This document shows, in pieces, positions 59,200 through 62,365 of a DNA stretch of 64,000 nucleotides (within the stretch, counting starts at the first letter, position 1; each line of letters opens with the position of its first letter). The notes under the pieces were generated by a model, which was given only the letters and a program-made list of their open reading frames with translations, had not been told where the DNA came from and ran no database searches. Source of the stretch: Chryseobacterium sp. MYb7 (GTDB lineage Bacteria > Bacteroidota > Bacteroidia > Flavobacteriales > Weeksellaceae); NCBI RefSeq assembly GCF_002979455.1, contig NZ_PCOU01000023.1, forward strand, positions 1 to 64,000, read 5' to 3'. Both the position numbers and the translations under genes were made by a program.

Positions 59200-59628
59200 A
59201 TGAACTATAATAATTCAAATTCGAGCTCAATACCTAAAGATATTGTTTTGTTAGTGGTAAGAGTATTTGTAGGTTTTGCGATGCTTTCTCACGGCTTTCC
59301 AAAACTTCAGATGCTATTGGCAGGCGGTAAAATCGAGTTTTTCGATTTTATGGGACTTGGCCCTCAGATATCACTTATTCTTACAGTTTTTGCTGAATTT
59401 GTTTGTTCAATACTCCTTATACTAGGCCTCTTTACAAGAGTTTCTTTAGGATTTCTGATCTTTACAATGATTATTGCAGGTTTTGTAGTACATGGTGCAG
59501 ATCCTTTTGAAAAAAGAGAAATGGCTCTTGTTTACCTTTCCGTTTATCTTTTATTGATGGTAATCGGAGCCGGAAAAATCTCAGTAGATCATATGATTGA
59601 GAGAAGAAAAAGGGCCTCAGAATGGTAA
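59200..59628 (+). CDS. DoxX family membrane protein
   Basis: A 142-residue protein with four hydrophobic segments and the DoxX pattern (RVFVGFAMLSHGFPKLQ, GLGPQISLILTVFAEFVCSILLILGLFTR, then HGADPFEKREMALVYLSVYLLLM). Members are inner-membrane proteins of uncertain role, some linked to quinone or redox chemistry. It ends at a 15-bp bidirectional stem. Confidence 0.87.
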   Translation: MNYNNSNSSSIPKDIVLLVVRVFVGFAMLSHGFPKLQMLLAGGKIEFFDFMGLGPQISLILTVFAEFVCSILLILGLFTRVSLGFLIFTMIIAGFVVHGADPFEKREMALVYLSVYLLLMVIGAGKISVDHMIERRKRASEW

Positions 59629-59654: not shown

Positions 59655-59689
59655 AAACAAGGCGCTTCAGAGATTGAAGCGCCTTGTTT
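59655..59689. terminator. Strong bidirectional terminator
   Basis: A 15-bp perfect stem (59655-59669 with 59675-59689), 5-nt loop, A and T runs at its ends, between doxX and the small peptide gene. Confidence 0.85.
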
Positions 59690-59693
59690 ATTC

Positions 59694-59843
59694 TTAATAA
59701 TTGCAGTGAGGTAAGCAATCCCAGATCAGTTTTCCGTTTTCGTCTCTTACTCTGCAAGCCATAAAGCCTGCATCACATAAAGGAGCACTTCCGCCATTGA
59801 TTGTTTTTAAATGTAATTTTGATAATTTTTTTAAATTTTTCAT
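59694..59843 (-). CDS. Double-glycine leader peptide, bacteriocin-like (49 aa)
   Basis: A 49-residue gene from ATG 59843, missed by longer-ORF thresholds. The leader MKNLKKLSKLHLKTINGG ends in a Gly-Gly at 17-18, the cut site of peptidase-domain ABC exporters. The following 31 residues hold four Cys (23, 30, 43, 47) plus Trp and His. The sequence is typical of the small peptides Chryseobacterium genomes annotate as bacteriocin-like. It could be a secreted antimicrobial or signalling peptide with Cys bridges. No exporter or modification enzyme is nearby, so processing would have to come from elsewhere. A strong terminator follows. Upstream (59887-59902) gacactttttagtgcc makes a small hairpin. 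Confidence 0.72.
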   Translation of the reverse strand: MKNLKKLSKLHLKTINGGSAPLCDAGFMACRVRDENGKLIWDCLPHCNY

Positions 59844-59962
59844 ATTATTTTAATTTGTAAAGTAAATGTAATAAAAAAACGAATACGGCACTAAAAAGTG
59901 TCTTATTTATTTAATTTTATAAATCTCTTAAAATTTACTACATTCGTAAAAAATGAATTTAT

Positions 59963-62365
59963 ATGAAGATAAAACTGACCATCTGCCTTCTGGCATTTCT
60001 CAATTTTTATGATGCACAGGAGAATATCACTTACCAGAAACCCTCTGCGGAGATTTTAAAACTGGCAGACTATCAAAGACCACCAAGCGTTCTGATGAAC
60101 AGCAAAAAAGACTGGGTGGTTTTTACGTATCGTCCAACATATAAAACACTGGAAGACCTTAGTCAGCAGGAAATGAAACTTGGAGGACTAAGAATTAATC
60201 CTGTTACCAATATTTCAAGCAGCACTACCTACTCAAACAACCTGAAGATCAGAAAGATCAATGATAAAAATGAGGTTCAGGTAAAAAACCTGCCTTCCAA
60301 TCCGAAAATTACCTATGTGTCATTTTCTCCGGATGAAAAAAAGCTGGCATTTACCAATACAACAGCTAAAGGAGTTGAACTTTGGTTAGTGGATATGGAA
60401 ACCGCTGCTGCCAAAAAAATTACGGCTGATAACCTGAATGCCAATTTAGGAATGCCTTATGTGTGGTATAATGATTCTCAAAGCTTCCTGATCAGAGCAA
60501 TTCCTCAAAACAGACCTGCTCTTATAGATGCAAGCAAAGACCTTCCAACAGGCCCGATTGTTTCAACAGCAGACGGTAAAGTTTCTCAAAACAGAACGTA
60601 TCAGGATCTTTTGAAAAACCCTCAGGACGAAAAGAACTTCGAAACGCTTACTGCTTCTGAAATCTACAACGTAGATCTTACGGGAAATCTTAAGAAACTG
60701 AAAGATCAGGATATGTATGCCGGCTTAAGTTTTTCTCCGGATGGAAATTACCTGATGGCTACAACGATCAAAAAGCCCTTTTCTTATATCGTTCCGTTGA
60801 ACAGATTCCCATCAACAACTGTAGTGTATGATATGAAAGGAAATGCTGTAAAAACAGTAAATGAAGTTCCTTTGAATGAAATTATGCCAAAAGGTTTCTC
60901 ATCCGTAAGAACCGGAAAAAGAGATATGACCTGGAGAAGTGATGCTCCGGCTACTCTTACCTTTGCTGAAGCATTGGATGGAGGAGATCAGTCTAAAACA
61001 GCAGATTACAGAGATGAAGTATTTACATGGGAAGCTCCATTTACAGAAGCTCCTAAATCTTTCTTCAAAACAAAACAGAGATATGATGATGTAACCTGGA
61101 CCAATGATCATTATGCCATTGTTTCTGAAGGATGGTATGATACAAGAAATACAAAATCTTATCTGATAGACACCAACAACGGAGAATCTAAAGTTTTCGA
61201 TGATAGAAATTATCAGGATGTTTACAGTGATCCGGGTAATTTTAACACCACAAAAAATCAGTACGGAAGATATGTAATCGATATGAAAGGTGGAAAAGCT
61301 TACCTTATCGGCGATGGATTTACCAAAGACGGCCAACATCCTTTTATTGATGAAATGGATGTAAAATCGTTGAAAAAGAAAAGACTTTACACTTCCAATA
61401 TAAAGAATGGTAAAGAAGAGATTATTGATATTCTTAACGCTTCAAAGGGAGAAATTCTTACGACTCAACAGTCACCAAGCCTTTACCCAAATTATTTCAA
61501 AAAGAATATCAAATCTAATAAAGAAGAAGCGGTAACCAACTTTGCAAATCCTTTTGAGAGCATCAAAGATGTTTACAAAGAAGTAATTACTTATAAGAGA
61601 AATGATGGAGTTACCTTAACCGGAACACTTTATCTTCCTGCCAATTACGACAGAAAAGCCAAAAAAGAGAAACTTCCATTGTTGATCTGGGCATATCCTA
61701 CAGAATATAAAGATAAAAATACAGCAGGGCAGAACACTCAAAACCCGAACGATTTTACATTCCCTTACTACGGATCTTTCGTGTACTGGACAACGAAAGG
61801 GTACGCTGTTCTTGATGATGCCGCTTTCCCGATTATTGGTGAAGGAAAAACAGAACCTAATGATACATTTATCCCACAATTGGTAGCCAATGCTGCAGCT
61901 GCAATTGATGCTGTAGATCACCTTGGGTATATCGACAGAAAGAAAGTGGCTGTAGGTGGACATTCTTATGGTGCATTTATGACCGCGAACCTTTTGACGC
62001 ATTCCAATCTTTTTGCATGTGGAATAGCAAGAAGTGGGGCTTACAATAGAACTTTGACACCATTTGGGTTCCAGAGCGAGCAGAGAAACTATTGGGATAT
62101 TCCTGAGATCTATAACAAGATGTCTCCATTCATGAATGCAGATAAAATGAAGACTCCTCTTCTTCTGATTCACGGTGATGCAGATAACAACCCTGGAACA
62201 TTTACTTTGCAGACGGAAAGATATTTCCAGGCATTGAAAAATCTGGGTGCTCCGGTAAAAATGGTTCTTCTTCCAAAAGAAGCCCACGGATATCAGGCCA
62301 AAGAAAATATCTTACACCTTTTATGGGAACAAGATCAGTTCCTTGAAAAGTGCTTAAAGAAATAA
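59963..62365 (+). CDS. S9 family serine peptidase (prolyl oligopeptidase-type), exported
   Basis: An 800-residue protein with signal peptide (about 1-18), a long beta-propeller region (about 60-520) and a C-terminal alpha/beta hydrolase. The catalytic Ser is S668 in GGHSYGAFM, the Asp is in HGDADNNPG (about 739-741) and the His is H775 in EAHGY. The propeller and the SPDEKKLAF repeat resemble the glutamyl endopeptidase/acylaminoacyl group of S9 rather than DPP IV. It cleaves peptides in the periplasm or outside. It is followed by a terminator and a convergent HAD gene. Confidence 0.93.
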   Translation: MKIKLTICLLAFLNFYDAQENITYQKPSAEILKLADYQRPPSVLMNSKKDWVVFTYRPTYKTLEDLSQQEMKLGGLRINPVTNISSSTTYSNNLKIRKINDKNEVQVKNLPSNPKITYVSFSPDEKKLAFTNTTAKGVELWLVDMETAAAKKITADNLNANLGMPYVWYNDSQSFLIRAIPQNRPALIDASKDLPTGPIVSTADGKVSQNRTYQDLLKNPQDEKNFETLTASEIYNVDLTGNLKKLKDQDMYAGLSFSPDGNYLMATTIKKPFSYIVPLNRFPSTTVVYDMKGNAVKTVNEVPLNEIMPKGFSSVRTGKRDMTWRSDAPATLTFAEALDGGDQSKTADYRDEVFTWEAPFTEAPKSFFKTKQRYDDVTWTNDHYAIVSEGWYDTRNTKSYLIDTNNGESKVFDDRNYQDVYSDPGNFNTTKNQYGRYVIDMKGGKAYLIGDGFTKDGQHPFIDEMDVKSLKKKRLYTSNIKNGKEEIIDILNASKGEILTTQQSPSLYPNYFKKNIKSNKEEAVTNFANPFESIKDVYKEVITYKRNDGVTLTGTLYLPANYDRKAKKEKLPLLIWAYPTEYKDKNTAGQNTQNPNDFTFPYYGSFVYWTTKGYAVLDDAAFPIIGEGKTEPNDTFIPQLVANAAAAIDAVDHLGYIDRKKVAVGGHSYGAFMTANLLTHSNLFACGIARSGAYNRTLTPFGFQSEQRNYWDIPEIYNKMSPFMNADKMKTPLLLIHGDADNNPGTFTLQTERYFQALKNLGAPVKMVLLPKEAHGYQAKENILHLLWEQDQFLEKCLKK

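Follow-up and report, generated by a model that had tools for sequence, protein, structure and literature searches.

Among characterized peptides, the nearest to the one considered here are the bacteroidetocins, antibacterial peptides with a double-glycine (GG) leader, four cysteines, a small mature form, and a C39 peptidase-containing ATP-binding cassette (ABC) exporter accompanied by a thiol oxidoreductase (PMC6671954). Our subject is a precursor gene in a 64,000-nucleotide stretch of the Chryseobacterium sp. MYb7 genome (contig NZ_PCOU01000023.1, positions 1 to 64,000; hereafter the window), a minus-strand frame running from 59843 to 59694 that encodes the 49-residue peptide MKNLKKLSKLHLKTINGGSAPLCDAGFMACRVRDENGKLIWDCLPHCNY followed by a stop codon. 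It resembles the bacteroidetocins in the features just listed, but bacteroidetocin genes lie next to that of their exporter, and their toxicity to Bacteroidales is proven (Coyne et al., 2019; PMC6671954), whereas the window precursor is distant from its candidate exporter. Bacteroidetocin leaders have 15 residues (PMC6671954), and that of the window peptide has 18. In place of a C39 exporter and thiol oxidoreductase encoded in cis, we found a VKOR and C39 pair on another contig of the same genome, C15. The oxidase there is also of a different kind, a VKOR-thioredoxin protein with a C39-like domain that is predicted to be dead.

Other described systems offer partial parallels. NCBIfam already lists the family of this leader as NF047798 (leader_Chryseo); its members are named 'bacteriocin-like protein' and are functionally undescribed. 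The window leader matches this model at 29.5 bits (cut-off 23.5) over positions 1-18 of 18, and by sequence the peptide adds a further member to the group; however, the model covers the leader only and is silent on exporter, oxidase, and core. A first-pass annotation made from the DNA letters alone had called the peptide unlisted, which is true of the list of open reading frames (ORFs) that it used, but not of the leader family. The prochlorosins, with ProcA precursors and the enzyme ProcM, likewise combine many precursors, a common leader, and one promiscuous machinery (PMC10783134), but they rely on lanthionine chemistry and a Nif11-type leader, whereas the leader in our case is of a different type and the expected bonds are disulfides. 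The C39-like domain of HlyB is a degenerate C39 thought to recruit substrate (PMC6363468), and in this it resembles what we propose for the domain on C15, but it is part of an ABC exporter, whereas here the domain is fused to VKOR-thioredoxin.

We suggest that the window peptide is an orphan precursor with a double-glycine leader of the leader_Chryseo family and that it is probably matured and exported by the VKOR/C39/HlyD hub on C15. The sequence comparisons below give good support to the idea that this operon serves, in trans, the window peptide together with roughly 30 paralogues.

The precursor gene and its conservation

The first-pass annotation had described a complete 49-residue frame with a leader ending in INGG and a four-cysteine core, a description borne out by the sequence, the leader score, and purifying selection. 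The leader carries I-4, L-7, L-12, and L-15 ahead of its GG, and it fits the rule for double-glycine (C39/PCAT) substrates, namely hydrophobic residues at -4, -7, and -12 with GG, GA, or GS at -2/-1. The window contains no other small ORF that looks like such a leader peptide, and 60 dinucleotide-preserving shuffles produced none. No named family was found to match the core. Two bacteriocin models fell short of their cut-offs: the CCPGW putative bacteriocin NF047792 (18.8 bits, cut-off 80) and Bacteriocin_IIc, PF10439 (13.8 bits, cut-off 27.1).

Our comparison set comprised 173 Chryseobacterium genomes and 56 from sister genera. Relatives of the window peptide occur in 147 of the 173, and tests of synteny and selection drew on the 30 best orthologous loci, 29 of which have an intact frame. 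In all 30 loci, the gene keeps its place between a convergent DoxX gene and a divergent S9 peptidase gene, with Era beyond DoxX. The four cysteines, the GG, G26, the core tryptophan, and two core prolines are invariant among the 29 intact orthologues, for which the median pairwise ratio of nonsynonymous to synonymous substitution rates (dN/dS) is 0.17 (leader 0.20, core 0.16). By these sequence measures, the frame is a conserved coding gene under purifying selection. Conservation in related genomes, a check that the first-pass annotation had set, was thus found, except in two broken orthologues, one with an 11-base deletion in the leader (G116) and one with stops (G015). These weigh against our interpretation, since they indicate that the gene is dispensable in some species, and they would also be in keeping with a relic or an untranslated frame. 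The low dN/dS, the invariant cysteines, and the conserved terminator make such a frame very improbable.

The flanks are less distinct than had been claimed. What was taken for the gene's own terminator is one hairpin usable on both strands and common to the precursor and the convergent DoxX gene; its stem has at least eight pairs in 27 of the 30 orthologues, with visible compensatory changes. The strong upstream boundary came down to a weak hairpin of only six pairs (59887-59902), and a promoter scan of the upstream region stayed near chance level, with no convincing promoter called.

The operon on contig C15 and the co-occurrence of VKOR with the leader

In agreement with the first-pass annotation, no exporter or tailoring enzyme adjoins the precursor: there is no C39 exporter on the window's contig, and by eye no larger ORF in the window resembles a tailoring enzyme. 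The annotation had supposed an orphan served from another locus and had advised a genome search for C39 exporters and same-leader paralogues. The genome has four strong C39 exporters and one weak match, and 32 leader_Chryseo matches lie over the cut-off, with about 50 candidates in short frames. Besides the exporter on C15, there are others on C67, C12, and C31, and only that on C15 adjoins a peptide with a leader_Chryseo-type leader, consistent with service from elsewhere. The arrangement of the C15 operon (Table 1) recurs widely: in 75 of 80 named Chryseobacterium loci the C39 gene comes after VKOR, 72 have HlyD, and at least 57 contain a leader peptide. At L145:6785-8992 and L147:3882-6076, two genes that by eye resemble those for graspetide maturases separate the leader peptides of the operon from the C39 gene, as though a graspetide system shared the exporter.

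When 30 of the MYb7 candidates were read as peptides, the leader was common to all and the cores were very different; only one of the paralogues read, on contig C12, matched the window core (E 6e-18). The claim that such orphans are common in Chryseobacterium held up well, with leader matches over the cut-off in 160 of the 173 genomes and up to 46 per genome; in the sister genera the leader is sparse (13 genomes). Among 159 leaders, positions -4, -7, -12, and -15 are hydrophobic in 98-100%, followed by GG, GA, or GS. The protease LahT contacts leader positions -4, -7, and -12 (PMC6363468). Moreover, by inspection, types that are orphans in the MYb7 genome sit inside the operon in other genomes, the L005 type in G044 and the L002 and L006 types in G001, G031, G094, and G130, which ties the orphans directly to the operon.

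Leader peptides and VKOR also occur together. Within the genus, 159 genomes have both and 10 have neither, with leaders only in one and VKOR only in three (Fisher test 6e-13, which ignores kinship); in the sister genera, VKOR is present in 12 of 13 leader-bearing and 2 of 43 leaderless genomes (Fisher test 2e-9, again ignoring kinship). Forty genomes have a single C39 exporter, 1-46 leader peptides, and VKOR in every case. In the 17 of these whose coordinates were compared, about 6 kb at most separates the single exporter from VKOR, G143 being an outlier at about 13 kb. In another single-exporter genome, G088, the window peptide has a syntenic orthologue; the C39 gene and VKOR there sit at the ends of two separate contigs. 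These patterns bear on the idea that another C39 exporter (C67, C12, or C31), or several without preference, exports the peptide. Such exporters exist in the genome, and C39 proteases such as LahT accept diverse leaders (PMC6363468), but none of the three adjoins a leader_Chryseo peptide, and simply having a C39 exporter of some kind predicts leaders far less well, since 10 of the 13 leaderless genomes have one (Fisher test 1e-3). Together with the forty single-exporter genomes, this leads us to consider export by another C39 exporter unlikely.

Several observations weigh against service by the C15 hub. A search with a hidden Markov model of the window core family gave only marginal matches inside operons (best E 0.0097), and two MYb7 cores similar to the window core scored 0.015 and 0.03. 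The co-occurrence of leaders and VKOR partly follows phylogeny: on the Der gene tree, VKOR presence needs six changes, at least four of them well supported, and the independent pairs (three concordant, none discordant, one tie) fit in direction but are too few for a test. Four leader_Chryseo matches occur in G069, which has neither VKOR nor a C39 exporter, and leaders are present without VKOR in the sister-genus genome G285. Conversely, G089 and G137 have VKOR without leader matches, as does G030, where the case is weak. A close relative of G069, G094, has the operon, and G069 may have lost it recently, with precursors left over.

Table 1. Coordinates of the precursor locus (window positions) and of the candidate service locus (contig C15)
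Feature	Coordinates	Strand	Remarks
Precursor peptide gene	59694..59843	-	49 codons; stop codon within coordinates
Leader MKNLKKLSKLHLKTINGG	59790..59843	-	18 residues; hydrophobic at -4, -7, -12, -15; GG at -2/-1
Core SAPLCDAGFMACRVRDENGKLIWDCLPHCNY	59697..59789	-	31 residues; four Cys
DoxX family protein	59200..59628	+	PF07681; conserved syntenic neighbor, outside the system
S9 prolyl-oligopeptidase family protein	59963..62365	+	PF00326; conserved syntenic neighbor, outside the system
Intrinsic-terminator-like hairpin	59655..59689		Bidirectional; common to precursor and convergent DoxX gene
Upstream intergenic region	59844..59962	-	Largely conserved among orthologues (alignment)
VKOR and thioredoxin protein	C15:17130-18644		PF07884, PF13462
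C39-ABC exporter	C15:18835-21030
64-residue peptide	C15:21093-21287		Leader MKNLKKLSR..; slightly below NCBIfam cut-off
HlyD adaptor	C15:21334-22632
Whole VKOR/C39/peptide/HlyD operon	C15:17130-22632

The VKOR-thioredoxin protein and the site of oxidation

All 113 in-operon peptides have four or six cysteines, and the number is even in 52 of 53 core clusters (in-operon peptides and MYb7 paralogues). Given these even numbers, disulfides are likely, and the four cysteines of the window core are likely joined into two by the VKOR-thioredoxin protein. The sole leader_Chryseo core family seen with an odd count, five (L028, at G000:C24:1055-1108 and on in the MYb7 genome, and L144:8110-8277), might form a dimer or keep a free thiol.

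The first-pass annotation had looked toward MNIO or radical SAM enzymes as partners and did not foresee VKOR-thioredoxin. The peptide could in principle be a ribosomally synthesized and post-translationally modified peptide in which an MNIO, lanthionine, or radical SAM enzyme encoded elsewhere alters the cysteines, and the genome does encode a single protein of each of the types MNIO, LanC-like, and SPASM. Each of the three, however, is clustered with precursors of a different sort: candidate precursors with other leaders adjoin both the MNIO and the LanC-like gene, and the SPASM match sits in a graspetide cluster with precursors of its own. With even cysteine numbers pointing to disulfides, we regard such modification as quite improbable. 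The clusters themselves lie on three MYb7 contigs: a graspetide cluster of the Grasp-with-spasm type, in which three nearly identical precursors stand in tandem, with a C39 exporter of its own (C31:8256-13529, L070); a LanC-like gene with a gene that by eye is luciferase-like and a 60-residue precursor-like ORF, MSKKLTKK..CVCPA (C23, L257:200-2517); and an MNIO protein of the MbnB_TglH_ChrH family with a 73-residue precursor-like neighbor ending in GHGCPACGMG (C10, L255:1180-2502).

The VKOR protein has exactly six cysteines in 28 of 30 sequences, and its redox cysteines are invariant: C175 and C189 (loop pair), C256 and C259 (CxxC of the VKOR core), and C368 and C371 (CGFC of the thioredoxin). 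Residues 1-118 contain no cysteine in any of the 30 sequences, and hence the catalytic cysteine of C39 is absent. An AlphaFold2 model of residues 1-115 (predicted local distance difference test score, pLDDT, 87) was compared with the PDB by Foldseek, and the top matches were ComA (3k8u, E 3e-5), LahT in complex with a leader (6mpz, TM 0.72), PCAT1, and the C39-like domain of HlyB (3zua). The N-terminal domain is thus predicted to have a catalytically dead C39 peptidase fold. A sequence-profile comparison of the domain with the exporter C39 gave no match, the alignments being too shallow to be informative, and it was the structure prediction that settled the point. Since substrate recruitment is the presumed role of degenerate C39 domains in other exporters (PMC6363468), and since the leaders keep the positions that LahT contacts, we propose that the dead domain docks the leader. 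Our literature search, which left most subscription journals outside, found nothing relevant on VKOR combined with C39-like domains or bacteriocin systems.

The distribution of charge suggests where oxidation takes place. The loops bearing the redox sites have mean lysine plus arginine counts of 3.5, 2.0, and 7.9, and those on the opposite face 0, 0, and 0; with all positive loop charge on one face, the positive-inside rule has the redox sites facing the cytoplasm, opposite to how VKOR is usually oriented, an assignment in which we have moderate confidence. It rests on charge counts, the full-length model (six hydrophobic helices) being poor, with a pLDDT of 69, and this too counts against our interpretation. 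A possible precedent is the VKOR of Aeropyrum pernix, placed in two compartments according to the title of a 2017 paper by Hibender et al.

The same hub could instead work with canonical VKOR topology, the C39 domain cutting in the cytoplasm and the core being oxidized by thioredoxin/VKOR on the periplasmic side, either while the peptide is exported or afterward. The periplasm is where VKOR-thioredoxin fusions usually work. Bacteroidetocins, too, have a thiol oxidoreductase gene beside their C39 exporter (PMC6671954), and if helix 119-137 does not span the membrane, the C39-like domain would be cytoplasmic even with a periplasmic active site. However, the face with the redox sites has all the positive charges, the type I route does not pass through the periplasm, and the C39-like domain would have no obvious ligand if the leader were removed in the cytosol. 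We see periplasmic oxidation as possible, if rather doubtful.

Oxidation on the cytoplasmic side, before the C39 cut, is our tentative preference. In this scheme, the dead C39-like domain of the VKOR protein would dock the leader, VKOR-thioredoxin would oxidize the core to two disulfides on the cytoplasmic side, the exporter C39 domain would cut after GG, and the 31-residue miniprotein would be secreted by the type I path (ABC-HlyD-outer membrane factor). Extended to the genome, the C15 operon may be a leader-guided disulfide factory, in which the dead-C39 VKOR-thioredoxin captures dozens of trans-encoded GG-leader precursors, oxidizes them in the cytoplasm, and passes them to the C39 exporter, a single hub for the whole disulfide-miniprotein repertoire. 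We put this broader view forward as plausible but short of probable.

Possible roles of the peptide and wider meaning

No immunity gene is recognizable among the genes adjoining the precursor. The core evolves slowly and is inherited vertically, unlike the products of a fast arms race; given this and the lack of a linked immunity gene, an arms-race toxin fits less well, and a better fit would be a conserved miniprotein that is secreted or signal-like, or else a bacteriocin whose target does not change. With a constant core and no recognizable immunity neighbor, a signal or surface role is as possible as an antibacterial one.

Chryseobacterium genomes hold up to about 45 'bacteriocin-like' orphans, whose maturation is undescribed in the literature searchable here. 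If one operon serves all of them, the whole repertoire could be tested through two genes. If a degenerate C39 domain does steer VKOR to leader peptides, disulfide formation would join the leader-guided modifications, and the system may prove useful for making disulfide-rich miniproteins.
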